Part shown: in pieces, positions 24,662 through 40,583 of the stretch
How the letters are laid out: each line of letters opens with the position of its first letter
How positions within the stretch are numbered: position 1 is the stretch's first letter
NCBI GenBank assembly: GCA_020853775.1
Contig: JADYYH010000035.1
Span: 1-64,000 of the forward strand
Origin: Nitrospira sp.
GTDB taxonomy: Bacteria; Nitrospirota; Nitrospiria; Nitrospirales; Nitrospiraceae
Direction of reading: 5' to 3'
Length of the DNA: 64,000 nt
Program-made: the position numbers and the translations under genes
The notes under the pieces: model-generated
Database searches by the model: none
What the model was told of the DNA's origin: nothing
What the model saw: only the letters and a program-made list of their open reading frames with translations

Positions 24662-26350
24662 TCAATCGAGTATGACGCGGCGCTCGACCAGTTGACCGAC
24701 TTCCGGATCATTCGAGACGAATACAGTCGACCAGGGCTCCTCTTTAGAGCAGAGCCTTCGCAGGAGCGTCAGTCGCACGGTCGGGTCGATATTGTGAAGA
24801 CTGCCGTTGAAAATCAGCAATTCCGGCCGGGTCACAATCATTCTAGCCAGAAGAATGCGAAGTACCTGGCTGCGGCTCAAATTCGCCCCGTTCCCGTGCA
24901 CGAGCGTTTCCAAGCCCTGGGGCAGCGCGTCGATTTCCTCCTCCAGCTCCACGAATCGGAGCGCCCAGCTCACATCGGCAAACTGAATTGACGGGCGCTG
25001 GAGCGTGATGTTTTCTTCCAGTGTCCCATCGAACAACGTGGGGTGGGAATCCAGCATCAAGCCACGGCAGCGATTCACATAGTTAAGCGACACGTCGCGC
25101 AGGTCGATGTCGTTGTAACGGATCACCCCGCTGGTGGGATGATAGAGGCCGGCCAGGAGAAGTGCGAGCGACGTTTTGCTTGTGCTCGTGCCCGTGAGCA
25201 CCGTGATCTTTTCGCCCGGCAGCACTTCCAGGTTGAAATGATCGAACAGCATCGGGCCGTCCGAGCCGGCAAAAGACACGTCTTTGCATGTCAGACGGAC
25301 TCCCTGCAGGGTGGGATTGGGAAGCCAGGCGGCGATCGGACCGGAGACCTCTTCCTTCGGCATGTCGAACAGCGCGGAGAGCTCCTGCAGTGAGGTGGCG
25401 ACATAGATGGCGGCGTACATGCGCCGGGCGACGACGTCGAGGTTGAGCAGCAGGGTGCCGACAATGACTTCCGCCGCCACGAACTGGCCGAGGGTAATAT
25501 CCGCCAGTGACAGCAACCATCCGCCGAGGCCGATCATGCCGCTGTGGGCGAAGGCCTGAAAGATGACCGCACTCTTATACTGAGCCCCGCTCAAAATATC
25601 GGAGCGGGTCTTCCTCGCCATGACATAGGCTTGCACCAGGGCATCGGTTTTCTTGAGCAGGAGGGGCAGGCTGTCGGTAGATTTGAAATGGAGCCGGTTG
25701 ATGCCGATGTCCTGCAACCAGTGAAACGTCTGGTAGTGGAGGCTCGACACCCGTTGAGTGATACGGAGCCCTCCGCGACCAAAAAATGTCAGAAGAAAGG
25801 CAAAACCCGTCATCAGGAAGACGTTATAGCCGAGGAAGTAGGGATGGTACATGATTAGGATTGTCATGCCGATCATGCCCGACACGAACACATTGATGAG
25901 GTCCACCAGCATGGCGACCAGCGCGCGCGGCAGCAGCTCCGCTTCGATGAACGTGTTCGTATGTTGGGGAAGAAAGACGTTCTCTCGAAAACGGGGTAAC
26001 GCTTCCGTGAACGCGACAGCCAGCCGGGTATAGATCCGCTGAACCAGGATTTCTACCGCTCGTCCTTGCAAGACCCGGAATGTCCCCATCAACAGCAACG
26101 CGCCCAACATGATGGCGACGAGCGTCACGATCATGATCGGTTGGATGGCGAAGGCGAAGGTGTTGACGAGCTCCTGCACGGTGAGCGGTACGATCAACGC
26201 AAACAGTCCGATCACGACGGCATAGGAGGCGATGATCGCCAGAATGCGCCGCTCAAGTCCGATGAGGAGATTGAGACGGGAAAGTATCGTCCAGGCTGAA
26301 GGGGTGGTGATCGTGGTTTCGGTGGCGTTGTGATTCACGCGAGGACTCAT
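24662..26350 (-). CDS. ABC exporter half-transporter with degenerate ATPase domain (second of pair)
   Basis: A 562-residue protein with an ABC exporter membrane domain (about residues 25-320, six helices) fused to a nucleotide-binding domain. Every catalytic motif of that domain is changed. Walker A is TGTSTSKT, with all three glycines lost and Lys392 kept. The Q-loop position reads SHPTLF, the signature is LSRSQ, Walker B plus catalytic Glu is LLIFNGS, and the switch His is Asn in VSNDP. The fold is otherwise retained (GTLEENI, ARMIVTRPELLIF). ATP hydrolysis by the usual mechanism is unlikely. It lies 130 bp from its paralogue and probably pairs with it. Confidence 0.85.
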   Translation of the reverse strand: MSPRVNHNATETTITTPSAWTILSRLNLLIGLERRILAIIASYAVVIGLFALIVPLTVQELVNTFAFAIQPIMIVTLVAIMLGALLLMGTFRVLQGRAVEILVQRIYTRLAVAFTEALPRFRENVFLPQHTNTFIEAELLPRALVAMLVDLINVFVSGMIGMTILIMYHPYFLGYNVFLMTGFAFLLTFFGRGGLRITQRVSSLHYQTFHWLQDIGINRLHFKSTDSLPLLLKKTDALVQAYVMARKTRSDILSGAQYKSAVIFQAFAHSGMIGLGGWLLSLADITLGQFVAAEVIVGTLLLNLDVVARRMYAAIYVATSLQELSALFDMPKEEVSGPIAAWLPNPTLQGVRLTCKDVSFAGSDGPMLFDHFNLEVLPGEKITVLTGTSTSKTSLALLLAGLYHPTSGVIRYNDIDLRDVSLNYVNRCRGLMLDSHPTLFDGTLEENITLQRPSIQFADVSWALRFVELEEEIDALPQGLETLVHGNGANLSRSQVLRILLARMIVTRPELLIFNGSLHNIDPTVRLTLLRRLCSKEEPWSTVFVSNDPEVGQLVERRVILD

Positions 26351-26480: not shown

Positions 26481-28148
26481 TCAATTCAGCATGATTCGGC
26501 GATCGACATGCGGAGTCAGATTCGGATCGTTCGAGACGAAGATGACCGACCAGGGTTCTTCTTTGCTGCACAGGCGGCGGAGAATCGTCTCCCGCATCGC
26601 GGGGTGCATATTGTGAAGAATGCCTTCGAATATGAGGAGCTGCGGGCGTCCCAGGATCGCTCGCGCCACCAGGATGCGCACGATGTGTGTCGGGGCGAAG
26701 ATTTTGCCGGCGGACCGCACATGCGTTTTCAGGCCGTAGGGAAGGGCATCGACTTCTTCTTCCAGTTCGGTGAAGCGCAGCGCCCATCGCACATCGCTAT
26801 AAGGGATGTATTCCCGGCCCAGCACGATGTTTTCTTCCAGCGTTCCCTCGAACAAGGACAGTTGTGAATCCAGGATGAATCCTCTGAAGCGATTGACGGA
26901 ATCCAGATTGAGGTGGCGAAGATCGACGCCGTTGTAGCGGATCACGCCCGCCGTGGGTGATTCGAGTCCGCCGAGCACGCGGGCCAGCGCGGTTTTGGCC
27001 ATCGTCGTGTCCGCATAAATGCCGATTTTTTCACCCGGCGTCACTTCCAGGTTGAAGTGCTCAAACACGGGCGGGCCGCCGGCTGGCGCAAAGGTGAGGT
27101 CTTTGCACGTGACTCGAATGCCGTGCACCGTCGGATCGGGCAAGGGAATAGACAGTGTGGCCGCGTCCTGATCTTTGGGCAGCGAAAAGAGGAAACTCAA
27201 TTCGGTCAAGGCGGTGAGGAAATAATAGATATGTCCCATGCGCTTGACGACGCCGTCGAAGCTGGAGAGGATGCCGCTCACCACGACTTCCGCCGCGACG
27301 AATTGTCCGAGCGTCAACTGGCCGATTCCCAGGAGCCAGCCTGCCGTTGCGATGAGACCGCTGTGGACGATCGCCTGCCATCCGAGCGATCCGAGATACT
27401 GCCGGATAAGGATTCCGAAGCGGGTTCTGCGGACCCCGACATAGGTATCCAGGAGCTGGTCCGTCTTTTTGATCAGCAGCGCCTGGCTATCAGTGGATTT
27501 TAAGTGGAGCAGGTTGTACGCAATTTCCTGAAACCAGTGCAGGGTGTCGTATTTGGCGTGTGACATGGCCATGTCGGCCTTCAGACCGCCATGGCTCATG
27601 AGGAAAAATACCACGTTGAATCCCACCAGCAGGATGGCATTAAACAGCAAGAAGTACGGGTGATAGAACACGAGGATCGTCATGCCGACCGCCCCGCCCA
27701 CGATCACGTTGATCAGATCGACCAGCAGGACCGACACAGCCCGCTGCATGAGAATGGTTTCGACGAAGTAATTGGCATACCGAGGCTTGAACCCCTGATA
27801 GCGTAAATGCGGCAGCTGCTGGGCCATGGCAATGGCCACCCGGGCGAAGATGCGCCGCTCCAGCACTTCCACTGCATAGTATTGGAGGGCTCGGAAGGCG
27901 CCGACAAAGAGCAGGCCCGCGACCATGACGGCGGCTAGGGTGACAATGGTGATGGGTTGGAGCGCGAAGGCGAAAGTGTTGACGAGTTCTTGAACCGTGA
28001 GAGGAACGATCAGCGAGAAGAGCCCGATGGCGATCGAATAGGAGACGATGAGGCCGAGGATGCGCCGTTCGAGACGAAACAGGAGACCCAGATGGCCGAC
28101 GACCGCTTGGAACAGATTGCTCTGGTTGTCGGAATGATCCTGGGCCAT
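26481..28148 (-). CDS. ABC exporter half-transporter with degenerate ATPase domain (first of pair)
   Basis: This 555-residue paralogue has the same layout as the next gene and shares long segments with it (GLFSLIVPLTVQELVNTFAF, GQLTLGQFVAAEVVV, LLRRLCSKEEPW-like). Its ATPase domain is equally degenerate but by different residues: Walker A ADTTMAKT with Lys385, Q-loop SQLSLF, signature region FAPTH, Walker B LLIFEGI and switch VSNDP. Independent replacements at the same sites with both genes intact suggest selection for a non-hydrolysing pair rather than decay. An upstream TolC and HlyD-like pair makes this a type-I-secretion-like set. Confidence 0.85.
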   Translation of the reverse strand: MAQDHSDNQSNLFQAVVGHLGLLFRLERRILGLIVSYSIAIGLFSLIVPLTVQELVNTFAFALQPITIVTLAAVMVAGLLFVGAFRALQYYAVEVLERRIFARVAIAMAQQLPHLRYQGFKPRYANYFVETILMQRAVSVLLVDLINVIVGGAVGMTILVFYHPYFLLFNAILLVGFNVVFFLMSHGGLKADMAMSHAKYDTLHWFQEIAYNLLHLKSTDSQALLIKKTDQLLDTYVGVRRTRFGILIRQYLGSLGWQAIVHSGLIATAGWLLGIGQLTLGQFVAAEVVVSGILSSFDGVVKRMGHIYYFLTALTELSFLFSLPKDQDAATLSIPLPDPTVHGIRVTCKDLTFAPAGGPPVFEHFNLEVTPGEKIGIYADTTMAKTALARVLGGLESPTAGVIRYNGVDLRHLNLDSVNRFRGFILDSQLSLFEGTLEENIVLGREYIPYSDVRWALRFTELEEEVDALPYGLKTHVRSAGKIFAPTHIVRILVARAILGRPQLLIFEGILHNMHPAMRETILRRLCSKEEPWSVIFVSNDPNLTPHVDRRIMLN

Positions 28149-31461: not shown

Positions 31462-32016
31462 ATGCCGAAGAACAAGCATGCGGATCGGGCGTTGGTCGGG
31501 GTCTTGGGCGGCAGCACATCAGACTTTCCCATTCTGGAGAAGGCCGTGGCTCTGTTGAACGAGCTCGGGATTCCCAATGAGTTGCTCGTGGTGTCGGCCC
31601 ATCGCACCCCGGACCGTCTCTTTGTCTATGCGGAACAGGCTGTGGAGCGAGGGATTCAAGTCATCATTGCCGGCGCCGGCGGCGCGGCCCATTTGCCGGG
31701 AATGGTCGCGGCCAAGACGTTGTTACCGGTCATCGGCGTGCCTATTCCCACCGAACATCTCCGCGGCCTCGATTCCCTTCTGTCGATTGTTCAGATGCCC
31801 CGAGGAATTCCGGTGGCGACAGTTGCTATCGGGGGTGCGGAAAATGCGGCCATCCTGGCAGCGCAAATTCTGGGATTGCAGTCCGCTTCTATCAGGCAGC
31901 GCCTCGAACGATTCCGTGCCGCGCAAACACAAAAGGTGCTCGATTCTCAGGATGACGCCCGGTTGTCCCCTGTCTTCCCGATTCCACGCCGTGCCAGGAC
32001 GAGCCGCAGGCCGTGA
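31462..32016 (+). CDS. purE: N5-carboxyaminoimidazole ribonucleotide mutase
   Basis: This 184-residue protein, ATG at 31462 with AGAGG eight bases upstream, has class I PurE motifs: [26 protein letters not shown] with the active-site His, and [17 protein letters not shown]. It converts N5-CAIR to CAIR in purine synthesis. The last 25 residues are a basic extension past the usual end. The stop overlaps the purK GTG start (GTGA), so purE and purK form an operon. Confidence 0.95.
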
Positions 32017-33179
32017 AGCTCACAGCGATTGATCCTGGCGCGACCTTGGGCGTGCTCGGAGGAGGGCAACTCGGCGCGATGTTTGCCACCGCTGCCCGCC
32101 GCATGGGGTATGCGATCGCGGTCTGGGATCCCGATCCGGAAGCGCCTGCCCACCGGATTGCCGACTATTCACTCATTCGCCCCTTCACGGACGCCGACGC
32201 ACGGGCCGACTTTATCCGACGGGTCCGTGCCGTCACCTATGAATGGGAAAATGTCCCCGCCGATCTTTGCGAACAGTTGGAGCGCGACCTTCCGGTTCGT
32301 CCATCAAGCCGCGTGCTTCGGGTAATTCAGGATCGCATCGAACAGAAGACGTTTTTGCGGACTCGGGGATTGCCCGTGCCAGCCTTTTCGACCCTGTCAT
32401 CACCTGATGAACTCGGCGGGCAGACCATGCCTCCGTATCCGCTGGTGTGCAAGACTGCCACAGCCGGGTATGACGGCAAGGGACAGTGGAAAATCCTTCG
32501 AGCGGAAGATTGCGCGGCGGTGCGGCAGGAGTTGGCCCGAAATCGCAAATCGGATTCGCGATGGATTCTGGAAGAATGGCTTCCGTTCGAACGTGAGCTA
32601 TCGATTCTGATTGTGCGAGGAGCCGATGGCGCGTTGCAGGCGTATCCATTAGTAGAGAATGTTCATGAGGACGGCATTCTCTGTCAGACGATTGTTCCGG
32701 CCGATGTGCCGCAGGCGGTTGCCGACCTGGCCGACAAGATCGCGTGTGAGGCCGTGCAGGCCTTGGATGGGGTGGGCGTGTTTTGCGTGGAATTGTTCCT
32801 GATGGCCGGTGGACGGTTGCTGATCAACGAAATCGCACCCCGACCGCATAACTCCGCTCACTACACCCTCGATGCTTGTACCGTTTCGCAATTTGAGCAA
32901 CAGGTGCGGACCTTGTGCGGCCTGCCGCTCGGAGAGGCCCGACTGCTCAGTCCCGCCGTGATGCTCAATCTGATTGGTGACAACGTTCGACTGGTGACGC
33001 ACTCACCCGCGTCGCATGACCTTCTGCGTGTGCCCGGTGCGATTGTGCACCTCTATGGAAAACGTGTGATTCGACCAAAGCGGAAAATGGGCCACATTTC
33101 CTTCCTCGCTCCCACCCGCGCGGAGGCGCTCGCAGCCGCATCGACATTCCGCTCGCGGTTTGTTCCAACTCAATCGTAA
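32013..33179 (+). CDS. purK: N5-carboxyaminoimidazole ribonucleotide synthase
   Basis: This 388-residue ATP-grasp enzyme starts with GTG inside the purE stop. Signatures are [20 protein letters not shown] at the N-terminus, [13 protein letters not shown] in the ATP-binding lobe and [19 protein letters not shown] with the metal ligands. It makes N5-CAIR from AIR, ATP and bicarbonate, feeding PurE. Length and motifs are normal. Confidence 0.95.
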
Positions 33180-33430: not shown

Positions 33431-35290
33431 GTGAGCGTTCCACTCTCCTCCGAACTCGATCAAACCGGACGACATCCCACCATGCGAGGACTGGGCCGAT
33501 TGCTCTCTCATTCGCGCGTGCGCGTGATGTTTCTGCAAAGCCTCGTGGCCGGCATTCTGTCCTATGAACTGCTGGTCAGTAACGAGACAATCTACGGGCA
33601 GAACGTCAGCCGGATGGTGGCGCTTGGATTGATCCTGATCAGTACGGGAATCATCCTGCTGCCGAAATCGGCGCTCGAGAGCGCCTGGTTTCCCGGCGCC
33701 TTGATCAGCATCAATACGCTGCTGGTGACGGGAACCATTTACCTCTCGGGAAACGCCAGTTCGGAATTGTATCTCACCTATTTCCTTCTCCTCCTCATTG
33801 CCTCATCCGCCCCCTCCCTGAAGCAACTGCTCGGCCTCTCCGTTATCATTTGTGCCGGGTATGGGGTCTTGGTTTATGAGCACGCGATGCAGTCCGGCAC
33901 CCTTGCGGTGGGACACCTGCTCGGCATTCCTGTCTTGCTGATCATGTCGGTATTTTACGGCCTCACGCTGGAAACCGTGGCGGTCGAGCGTCGACGGAAT
34001 CGTTTGTTGCGGGAAAACGTGCAGGGGTTGAAGCAGTCGGAGCAGGTGCTGGAGGAACGGCGGACGCAACTGGAAACCCGTGTGCAAGGGTTGAAGCAGG
34101 GCTTGTCCCGTGCCAACCAGGAAATTCGCCAAGGTATGGTCGAGCGCACCGGGCTGGAGCGGCAGTTGCGCGAAGCGCAAAAATTCGAGGCGATGGGGCG
34201 TCTGGCTTCCAGGTTGGCGGATGAATTCAATCAGGTACTCGCGGTGATCGGGGCTCAGACCGGTGCCATTGTCTCCAAGTTGAAACCCGATGATCCATTG
34301 CATGGGCCGGTGGAGGACATCTTCCGGAGCGGTGAGCGTGCGGCAACCCTCACGGCGCAACTGCTTGCGCTAGGCGTGCGCGAAACGAGCATTCGCGATA
34401 CGTTGTCGCTCGGCGATGCGATGCTGTCGATGCGCGAAGCGCTTCAAGGACTGCTTCCCGGGAGGATTGATGTGCAGGTGCCCGACGAGTCCAAGCCGGT
34501 ACTGGTGGAAATCGGGCATGACAGCCTGGAGTATCTATTGTTGCATCTGGTCGCGAATGCGCGAGATGCCATGCCGGGCAGCGGCCGGGTGGATATTTCG
34601 CTGGAGGTCGTGAGCGGAGAGTTGTTGCCGGCAGAACAACTGGAAAAGAATCCCCGGAAACGCATGGCGCGGATTGCCGTGAGTGATAGCGGCGGGGGGA
34701 TGAATCTGGATGTCCAGGCCCAGATGTTCGAGCCGTTCTTCTCGACCAAGGAGACCCATGCCGGTCTCGGACTGACGCTGGTCTATGGGATTGTGCGCCA
34801 AGCCGGCGGAACGGTGGAAGTGCAAAGCCAGCCCGGACAAGGCACGACGGTGCGCGTCTATCTGCCTCTGGTCGAGCGGAACGCGGTGTTGCGTGACACC
34901 AGGGTCCTCCCTGAGGCCTTGTCGAAGGGCGCGGAAACGGTGCTGCTCGTTGAGGAGGATGAAATCGCCAGGAAGCTGGCCCTGTCGACGCTGCACGGCC
35001 ATCGGTACCATGTGCTCGAAGCGGGGTCGGCGGTGGAAGCCTTGCTCGTCGTCCAACAATACCAAGGGCCGATTCACCTTACGGTCAGCCACCTCTCGAT
35101 GCCGGAAATCAGCGGCCGCGAGTTGGCGAAGCGGCTGGTGATGCAACATCCAAAAATGAAGGCGTTGTTCGTATCCGGATTCTCCGACGAGACGATCGCC
35201 AGTCATCGCGTGAATAGGAAATATTTCCTGCAGCAGCCCTATCGGCAGCACGACCTGGCTGGAAAAGTCCGCGAATTGTTGGATGTGTAA
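33431..35290 (+). CDS. Hybrid sensor kinase with exchanged phosphoacceptor residues
   Basis: A 619-residue protein with about five to six membrane helices (residues 30-185), a coiled coil (about 190-250), a HisKA-like box, an HATPase domain and a C-terminal receiver domain. The HisKA box reads GRLASRLADEFNQVL: the phosphoacceptor His of the usual AHDFNN is Asp264. The ATPase motifs look intact (HLVANARDAM, DSGGGMN, GLGLTL). In the receiver, the Asp of the usual LxTDxxMP is His554 (TVSHLSMPEISG), and the conserved Lys is Gln602 (FLQQPY). The start is GTG; an in-frame ATG at 33482 has no better site. Normal His-Asp transfer is not possible as drawn. Confidence 0.88.
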   Translation: MSVPLSSELDQTGRHPTMRGLGRLLSHSRVRVMFLQSLVAGILSYELLVSNETIYGQNVSRMVALGLILISTGIILLPKSALESAWFPGALISINTLLVTGTIYLSGNASSELYLTYFLLLLIASSAPSLKQLLGLSVIICAGYGVLVYEHAMQSGTLAVGHLLGIPVLLIMSVFYGLTLETVAVERRRNRLLRENVQGLKQSEQVLEERRTQLETRVQGLKQGLSRANQEIRQGMVERTGLERQLREAQKFEAMGRLASRLADEFNQVLAVIGAQTGAIVSKLKPDDPLHGPVEDIFRSGERAATLTAQLLALGVRETSIRDTLSLGDAMLSMREALQGLLPGRIDVQVPDESKPVLVEIGHDSLEYLLLHLVANARDAMPGSGRVDISLEVVSGELLPAEQLEKNPRKRMARIAVSDSGGGMNLDVQAQMFEPFFSTKETHAGLGLTLVYGIVRQAGGTVEVQSQPGQGTTVRVYLPLVERNAVLRDTRVLPEALSKGAETVLLVEEDEIARKLALSTLHGHRYHVLEAGSAVEALLVVQQYQGPIHLTVSHLSMPEISGRELAKRLVMQHPKMKALFVSGFSDETIASHRVNRKYFLQQPYRQHDLAGKVRELLDV

Positions 35291-35305: not shown

Positions 35306-36010
35306 CTAGTATCGCCAGGTCTCGGTGCGGCTGGGTTTAAAAAATCGTACGTCCGGGCGTTTGAAAAATCCGATCAGCAGCATGCCCGCAATAAACCCGC
35401 CGATGTGCGCAAAGAAGGCTACGCCTCCGCCCTGCGATCCCAGGCTCGCGCCCCCGTTCAGCAACTGCATGACGAACCACAAGCCCAACACGATCCCGGC
35501 CGGCACGTAGGTGGTGCCCACCACGGGGGCAATCAGCAAGACGCGGGCATGAGGAAAGAGCAGCAGGTACGCACCCAGTACGCCTGAAATGGCTCCGCTC
35601 GCGCCGACCATAGGGACCGTCGAGCTCGGGTCGGTCAACGCGTGGCTTAACGCCGCCAGGATTCCACATCCCACGTAAAAGACAATAAATCGGCCGTGCC
35701 CCATGATGTCTTCGATGTTGTTGCCGAAGACCCAGAGGTACAGCATGTTGCCGATCAGATGCATCCAGCTGCCATGTAGAAACATGCTCGTCAGAATGGT
35801 CGCATACGGGGGGATGGTGGCAAGCTCCGGAGGGAGCGTGGCCTGGCCGAACACGAGGGAGGGGATGGCCCCGTATTGATAGACGAAGGTTTCACCGGAA
35901 GCCGACCCGAGGGAGCTTTGGTAGAGGAAGATGAGGGAGCAGGCGACGATGAATGCGACGGTGACGACTGGCGTGCGTTCGGTCGGGTTATCGTCACTCA
36001 GGGGCAGCAT
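35306..36010 (-). CDS. Rhomboid-family intramembrane serine protease
   Basis: A 234-residue inner-membrane protein with about six to seven helices. The catalytic Ser lies in VGASGAISGVLGAYL and the His in FFAHIGGFIAGMLL, the family dyad; the loop SMFLHGSWMHLIGNMLYLWV matches the conserved L1/helix-2 region. Such proteases cut transmembrane substrates in the lipid bilayer. It converges on the hybrid kinase gene with a 15-bp gap. Confidence 0.93.
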   Translation of the reverse strand: MLPLSDDNPTERTPVVTVAFIVACSLIFLYQSSLGSASGETFVYQYGAIPSLVFGQATLPPELATIPPYATILTSMFLHGSWMHLIGNMLYLWVFGNNIEDIMGHGRFIVFYVGCGILAALSHALTDPSSTVPMVGASGAISGVLGAYLLLFPHARVLLIAPVVGTTYVPAGIVLGLWFVMQLLNGGASLGSQGGGVAFFAHIGGFIAGMLLIGFFKRPDVRFFKPSRTETWRY

Positions 36011-38910: not shown

Positions 38911-39071
38911 GGTATAAGCCTATTTCTCGCCGTGAGAGCGGCTAACGGTGCGGCCCGGCGACCACCACGTCGAAAGAAAGTATATCAGATGGATGTGCCG
39001 GACCCGTGTTCCCATCTTCCCTTGTCAACCAAGAGGTTAGGCGCTTAGACTGCACAGAAACTATAGTCACT

Positions 39072-40583
39072 ATGGTTGCTTCAAAATATGCCAAATGCGA
39101 TCTGATGAAAAGCGAATTCACACAACGCGCGAATAACCTTCCTGCACATGGGCTAGGGCTGTCCGTGGACGTGTATTCTCCGGATCTGCTGGAACTGGTT
39201 CGCGCGCTTCGTGATGCCGCGCTGGAGCCGGGATACCTGGAGGTGTTCAAAGCCACGACATCAGCCCTGCAGTGGATGCGGCAACAATTGCCGGATATCC
39301 AGCTTCCCTATCATGGTGAAGGCCTGTGGAGTACGCAACCGGAATTTCCCTGCAGTGGCTCGGGGCGACAAGGAGTGGCGGAGGCCTGCGCGCAGCTCGC
39401 GGCCTTGCGCAGCGCCTGGCTGAATCACGAATGCGCCACGAAGCAGATGGCGGGCTATGCGTTCGGGACCTATCTGCCGCCGCTGTATACAGAGCTGTCG
39501 GCCAGAAAGACGGCTGAAAATCTGGCCTATCTGCAAGACCAAGTCAATCAGGATGCACGCGCACGCGGGATCGAGCCTGCCCTGGTGCTCTTAGAAATGC
39601 CGCCGCTCACATATTTCGGCTGCGGTACGCTTCCGATTCCGGAGTTTTTCCACACGGTGACCCAGCAGGCCTCCTGCGGCCTGGTGCTGGATATCGGACA
39701 CCTCTGGACCGTGTATCGCTATACAGGGAGCTGGCAACGACAGCGGTTGGGAGAGTTCACCGCCGAGTTCCTTGATACATTTCCCATGGAACGGGTGATC
39801 GAGATCCATGTCGCAGGGTTGGCGGAATTGACGATTCCCCACGCTCCGGGAAGCGGCGCGAACGCGCAGGGGTTGCCCTATTGGATCGATGCTCATGGGG
39901 CTCCGATACCAGGCGTCTTATTTGAGTTGTTGGAGCAGGTCCTGTCCCATCCCGGCCTGACGTCGTTGAAAGGCGTCGCGCTGGAAGTCGATACGAAGCC
40001 GATTGCGCTGATCGTCGAGGAGTTCGGACAATTCCGGAAGCGGTTTGAATCGAGGGTCCTGGAAAAGGTCCATCATGAACATCTCAGTGCCCTGCATCCG
40101 CAGCGCTCGCCGATTGGTCGTGCGGCTGAGGGTGGGCAACTGACTCCGGAAGACGAAGCCGCTCTGCAGCAACAGTATCGCAGCTACGTGCACCTGGCCA
40201 CGTCGCGTAATGCTCCTGCCCCTTTGAGCGACGTCTCCTTGCTCGGTGGATCGCTGGAAGATCTCAGCCGGTACCGGGATACGTACTTACCGCATGAGCT
40301 CCTCCATTGGGGCGGCGATGTGCAGGATATGTTTCCGGACACCTGTCGTGCCCTCACGGAAGGGAATGTCCCATTGGCGGGGTTCGTTCCCTTCTGGTTC
40401 AGCCGACCCAGACCAGAACAGGACGACTACGATTTTTTTCTGCTGAAGATCGACCGATTCGTGGAATTCGCGAGACAGACGTGCCCGGCGGCTGCGAGGA
40501 TCGTCGTGCGTGAAGCCGACGAGCTACGGGACGCGTATCGCGCGGCGAACGAACCGATCGGCTCGGCACAGGTGCGCCCATGA
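39072..40583 (+). CDS. MNIO (DUF692)-like protein fused to an unknown C-terminal domain
   Basis: Residues 20-320 follow the DUF692/MNIO TIM-barrel plan: HGLGLSVDVY near the start, LPYHGEGLW, LLEMPPLTYFG (in place of the usual LENPSSY), CGLVLDIGHLWTVYRYTG (usual GLLLDVNNxYV), VIEIHVAGLAE and WIDAHGAPIPG. The His, Glu and Asp ligands of the iron site have counterparts. The remaining 180 residues form a domain I do not recognise. MNIO enzymes modify cysteines in peptides, usually with a partner; no precursor peptide was seen here. Starts at 39072 or 39105 are both possible. It overlaps dus by ATGA. Confidence 0.65.
   Translation: MVASKYAKCDLMKSEFTQRANNLPAHGLGLSVDVYSPDLLELVRALRDAALEPGYLEVFKATTSALQWMRQQLPDIQLPYHGEGLWSTQPEFPCSGSGRQGVAEACAQLAALRSAWLNHECATKQMAGYAFGTYLPPLYTELSARKTAENLAYLQDQVNQDARARGIEPALVLLEMPPLTYFGCGTLPIPEFFHTVTQQASCGLVLDIGHLWTVYRYTGSWQRQRLGEFTAEFLDTFPMERVIEIHVAGLAELTIPHAPGSGANAQGLPYWIDAHGAPIPGVLFELLEQVLSHPGLTSLKGVALEVDTKPIALIVEEFGQFRKRFESRVLEKVHHEHLSALHPQRSPIGRAAEGGQLTPEDEAALQQQYRSYVHLATSRNAPAPLSDVSLLGGSLEDLSRYRDTYLPHELLHWGGDVQDMFPDTCRALTEGNVPLAGFVPFWFSRPRPEQDDYDFFLLKIDRFVEFARQTCPAAARIVVREADELRDAYRAANEPIGSAQVRP

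Follow-up and report, generated by a model that had tools for sequence, protein, structure and literature searches.

Previous studies have found that 0.9% of HisKA domains lack the His and 2.0% of receivers lack the Asp (PMC12632262). A PF00072 domain lacking any of five active-site residues is termed a pseudo-receiver, and those without the Asp form the aspartate-less subset (PMC12632262), itself a described class (PMC4395418); the control of bacterial pseudo-receivers has been described as an open question (PMC12632262). ShkA and CikA carry a receiver fold minus its active-site residues within a hybrid kinase (PMC12632262, PMC4395418). Their kinase part is kept active and is inhibited by the pseudo-receiver, whereas in the Nitrospira protein analysed here the kinase part is dead too. 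Transmitters without His also occur in hybrid or phosphorelay sensors, namely CCNA_03265 of Caulobacter and RcsD of E. coli (PMC11481889, PMC3842833). CCNA_03265 was reported as a hybrid kinase that keeps its receiver Asp (PMC11481889), and RcsD serves the Rcs system as a phosphorelay; the Nitrospira protein, in contrast, has no active acceptor left. Signalling in the absence of kinase activity has a characterised precedent in DivL of Caulobacter crescentus, which has a HisKA/HATPase_c fold without the phospho-His, signals by contact and is neither a kinase nor a phosphatase (PMC4211667). A search of an open-access library turned up neither a described Nitrospira pseudo-kinase nor any account of the present family.

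The window, a stretch of 64,000 nucleotides from a Nitrospira sp. contig (JADYYH010000035.1), contains an intact frame at 33431-35290 (+) with a GTG start. It encodes a pseudo hybrid histidine kinase of 619 aa, which, as judged from the frame and its orthologues, consists of a membrane domain, a coiled coil, a DHp domain, a CA (HATPase_c) domain and a pseudo-receiver. The N-terminal membrane domain (about residues 29-190; 33515..34000, +) was recognised from its hydrophobic segments and its conservation; it probably forms several hydrophobic helices, carries a conserved motif (YLSGNA..LYL.YF) and gave no Pfam family match. It is followed by a putative coiled-coil signalling helix with a heptad-like sequence (about residues 191-245; 34001..34165, +). 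A Pfam search of the 619-aa protein matched HATPase_c (PF02518, E=6e-20; residues 364-480; 34520..34870, +) and Response_reg (PF00072, E=5.6e-10; residues 504-611; 34940..35263, +), and matched neither HisKA nor PAS. An AlphaFold model from 16 close orthologues showed the coiled coil as a continuous helix with low confidence; the model was too poor (pLDDT 50, pTM 0.34) for the conserved surface to be mapped on it and carries no argument. The closest models for the DHp-CA-receiver part were CckA-type hybrid kinases (NCBIfam NF046020 and NF046026, E=1.9e-76), and a CckA structure was among the best PDB sequence matches. The score of 257.7 bits falls below the equivalog cut-off of 1000 bits, and the Nitrospira protein differs from CckA in having no PAS region and in having lost the phosphotransfer residues.

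A reading made from the sequence alone had placed Asp at the phospho-His site, His at the receiver phospho-Asp site and Gln at the receiver Lys site. Alignment to paralogues with AHDFNN and TDVVMP motifs bore out all three with exact numbering: Asp264 (A-D264-E-F-N-Q; codon GAT, 34220..34222, +), His554 (35090..35092, +) and Gln602 (35234..35236, +). The same reading held that the ATPase motifs were kept. This is correct for N376, D419, G421, G423 and K440, but only partly for G2: GLGL is there, but G2 lacks its first Gly, and the ATP lid falls two residues short of that in the paralogues (KETHAGLGL versus KEKGKGTGLGL), as it does in 86/89 orthologues. In addition, the acidic pair of the receiver is E508-E509 (E-D in the paralogues), and H+4 is Gln268 (34232..34234, +) where the paralogues have Asn. 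The residue at H+4 is usually Asn or Thr and is required for phosphatase activity. A sequencing or assembly error behind Asp264 was ruled out by a separate MAG (VOPT01000051; 98% identical) with the identical Asp. We counted the HisKA-type boxes in the fetched loci of the genome after removing overlapping fetches; all 44 other distinct boxes examined carry His, so the Asp264/His554/Gln602 combination is unusual within this genome. The receiver ranked 112 of 114 by score in its genome.

A functional hybrid histidine kinase has a phosphorylatable His in DHp, a HATPase_c domain with N, G1, F and G2 boxes, and D, DD, T and K in its receiver. The Nitrospira protein has Asp264 at the His position (72 of the 89 orthologues lack the His), all four boxes with G2 partly degenerate, and H554, E508/E509, S582 and Q602 in the receiver. 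By sequence criteria only, it belongs to two known kinds of protein: the pseudo-histidine kinases, with a kinase fold that has lost the His and the H+4 residue, and the aspartate-less pseudo-receivers, with a PF00072 domain in which the D and K positions are changed and the second acidic residue is Glu.

Orthologues with the same membrane domain were present in 28 of the 29 genomes of the window's genus, which includes Candidatus Nitrospira defluvii (named records). The single genome without one was 66% complete, and one of the 28 orthologues was split over two contigs. Further orthologues, with 35-53% identity, were found in other genera of the family. The gene order purE-purK-gene-rhomboid-DHH was conserved across the genus, and its purK-gene-rhomboid core was present in the three sister genera sampled, supporting orthology. 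In the window, the neighbours are purK upstream (32013..33179, +) and a convergent gene for a rhomboid-family membrane protein (35306..36010, -), both named from their sequences and assigned by synteny. The least conserved neighbouring gene (64-82% identity in the genus) is a 525-aa frame at 39006-40583 (+) that matches PF05114 (MbnB/TglH/ChrH, RiPP precursor modification). Elsewhere in the window, two adjacent half-size ABC exporters, 24662-26350 (-) and 26481-28148 (-), lie beside HlyD- and TolC-like genes. Their ATPase motifs are degenerate (Walker A GTSTSKT and ADTTMAKT, signature LSRSQ and FAPTH, Walker B IFNG and IFEG), the second equally so in five other Nitrospira, and they look like a conserved pseudo-ATPase transporter pair.

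Residue counts, entropy and tree changes were determined from 89 aligned full-length intact orthologues, 27 of them from the window's genus. The column at position 264 was among the most variable (98th percentile of entropy) and had changed at least 24 times on the tree. It contained 13 residue types: N 23, H 17, G 17, K 8, E 6, D 4, Q 3, S 3, V 3, T 2, and one each of Y, L and A. Its flanks were fixed, with A263 (H-1) in 87/89 and E265 (H+1) in 85/89; E265 had changed four times on the tree. In the genus, position 264 was H in 16 orthologues, N in six, D in two, and Q, Y or L in one each. All 16 His orthologues used CAT, and a single base separates each non-His codon (GAT, AAT, AAC, CAG, TAT, CTC) from CAT or CAC. 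The His of the genus may have been kept or may have been regained from Asn; Gln, Glu, Thr and Gly occupy this site in the deepest branches, which makes a regain possible. Position 554 was His in 26/27 of the genus whatever the residue at 264, encoded by both CAT and CAC. Elsewhere it was Pro in 30/30 of the sister genus g6, Asp in 19/21 of g10 and mixed in g2. The other catalytic positions were also degraded. The receiver Lys was retained in 4/89 and the aromatic residue at K-3 in 30/89; at H+4, Thr occurred in 3/89, Asn never occurred in the listed counts, and most orthologues had H, Q, A, E or S. No orthologue among the 89 combined all the phosphotransfer residues. His and Asp occurred jointly in just one member (L039), where Arg replaces the Lys and the acidic pair reads E-P.

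The drift was limited to the catalytic sites, and within the genus purifying selection acts strongly on the protein as a whole. Median dN/dS values were lowest in the coil (0.040) and the receiver (0.043) and ranged over 0.088-0.102 in the remaining domains. By mean entropy, the receiver was the least variable domain in g2, g6 and g10 and came second, after the coil, in the window's genus. The nucleotide-site residues N376, D419, G421 and G423 were present in 89/89 orthologues.

The sequence-only reading had proposed a reciprocal exchange of phosphoacceptors, possibly with an altered relay. In such a relay Asp264 and His554 would swap roles, and phosphate on His554 would be exchanged with other proteins. 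In favour of it, the two substitutions are genuine and sit in a single protein, and His554, fixed in the genus with two different codons, is probably selected there. However, the two residues are not found together as a rule, and positions 264 and 554 vary separately across the 89 orthologues. The sequence-only reading had itself named homologues with normal residues, or with only one of the changes in a scattered pattern, as evidence that would refute the exchange, and the relatives supply such evidence. Within the genus, D264 was found only in the window's species and its nearest relative; the next relatives (L006 and L007; 95-96% identical) have a normal His264 with His554 unchanged, and Asn, Gln, Tyr or Leu at 264 likewise accompany the same receiver (H554; Q554 in one). 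D264 was present in 2/26 H554 proteins, and H554 was missing from 2/4 D264 proteins, two g10 proteins with Asp and Gly at 554. Independent pairs that differ in His264 almost always agreed at the receiver site (on average 4.8 of 5 pairs), a comparison with too few pairs to give the sign test any power. The cross-table and this comparison led us to reject reciprocal co-evolution. The receiver also has no Lys and no Asp-type acidic pair, and CA domains are not known to phosphorylate Asp. We consider a swapped relay extremely improbable; Asp264 and His554 are a coincidence of two separately drifting sites, which changed at different times in different branches. The substitutions could instead be steps of a decaying gene towards a pseudogene, and the sister genus g6 offers examples. 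In six inspected genomes (G033, G052, G061, G107, G122 and G134; L171-L175 and L177), purK directly adjoins the rhomboid gene with no trace of the gene, a clean absence that suggests repeated deletion or one old deletion. In G101 the gene is reduced to a remnant, and in G105 (L178, about 1625-2580) a transposase-like frame (...GFVCPTCSG) has inserted into it and the reading frame is broken once more; a copy in G129, split at an assembly gap, was left out of the loss claims. Such deletion and breakage indicate that the gene is not essential everywhere: some relatives do without the protein, although almost every genome of the window's genus has it. There, 28/29 genomes hold a full-length or contig-split frame with dN/dS of 0.04-0.10, and the receiver, although altered more than any other domain, ranks with the best conserved. 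We regard decay as quite improbable.

Catalysis could also persist in a form that depends on a partner, with the CA domain still binding ATP and phosphorylating a partner kinase on its His within a mixed dimer, or with an active kinase only in the species that have His264. The conservation of N376, D419, G421, G423, K440 and GLGL agrees with this, as do six related hybrid kinases with intact His in the same genome and the His of 16/27 genus orthologues, in which some activity may remain as judged from their residues. E265 occupies the usual general-base position, and its strong conservation is odd if no catalysis remains. The shortened ATP lid, the loss of the first G2 Gly and the repeated loss of His, even between close species, count against partner-dependent catalysis, and we regard this explanation as unlikely. 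Conserved E265 would also suit a phosphatase, in which DHp dephosphorylates a response regulator without needing His264; the conserved His is generally non-essential for HisKA phosphatase activity (PMC12632262). The E/DxxT/N motif is broken, however, with the H+4 Thr so rare, and a phosphatase seems very unlikely. Because the window's protein has lost the His, has no T/N at H+4 and lacks a competent receiver site, it is not expected to have kinase, phosphatase or relay activity; orthologues that keep His264 may differ in function.

The reading that we prefer, with a probability of about two in three, is that the protein is a membrane hybrid kinase homologue that has lost phosphotransfer, whose sites drifted independently and whose fold is kept for contact-based action. 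This fits the alternative offered by the sequence-only reading, namely that phosphotransfer was lost and a nucleotide-sensing role remained. The His, the phosphatase position H+4 and, in the receiver, the D, DD and K positions were freed from constraint and have drifted independently, and the fold would have been retained because the protein acts through contact. The dimer would be reshaped by a membrane or periplasmic cue, probably together with bound nucleotide; the docking surface of DHp and the beta5-alpha5 region of the pseudo-receiver, both conserved, would then engage a putative partner and bias it. Such a partner might be a response regulator from the same cell or one of its active hybrid kinases. 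The motif losses, the independent drift, the purifying selection, the retained nucleotide-site residues and the uniform family-specific residues are shown by the sequences; we infer that the protein binds nucleotide and dimerises, that it has a partner and which one, and in which direction control runs.

Residues uniform in the orthologues and absent from five paralogues mark candidate contact surfaces. In DHp they include G274, T277, G278, F298, A309 and L314, and in the receiver K515, V552, S553, L555, R593, N595, Y604, R605 and Q606. Positions H+10 to H+14 of DHp are close to the docking spot of response regulators, and the alpha4-beta5-alpha5 side of a receiver is a common binding face; together with the uniform family-specific residues, this points to a conserved partner. 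The docking surfaces and the nucleotide-site residues have both been retained, which speaks for an allosteric or scaffold role like that shown for DivL (PMC4211667). DivL, which binds phosphorylated DivK, differs in having a conserved Tyr and PAS input, whereas the Nitrospira protein has a freely variable site (Tyr in one orthologue only), no PAS match, a membrane input and an attached pseudo-receiver. We hold only tentatively, at somewhat less than even odds, that a doubly dead hybrid kinase, selected throughout one Nitrospira genus, signals purely by binding active hybrid kinases in its own cell, under the control of both nucleotide and membrane.

Pseudo-kinases and pseudo-receivers are both already recognised, and the interest of this protein lies in a conserved double-dead hybrid kinase rather than in a swap. 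What looks like a reciprocal swap of motifs in a single sequence can be coincidence, and a few close relatives are enough to expose it when genomes are scanned. The nearly 90 orthologues form a natural series in which the catalytic sites drift and the rest is held, so that functional surfaces can be read from conservation. The protein would be a candidate regulator in nitrite-oxidising Nitrospira.
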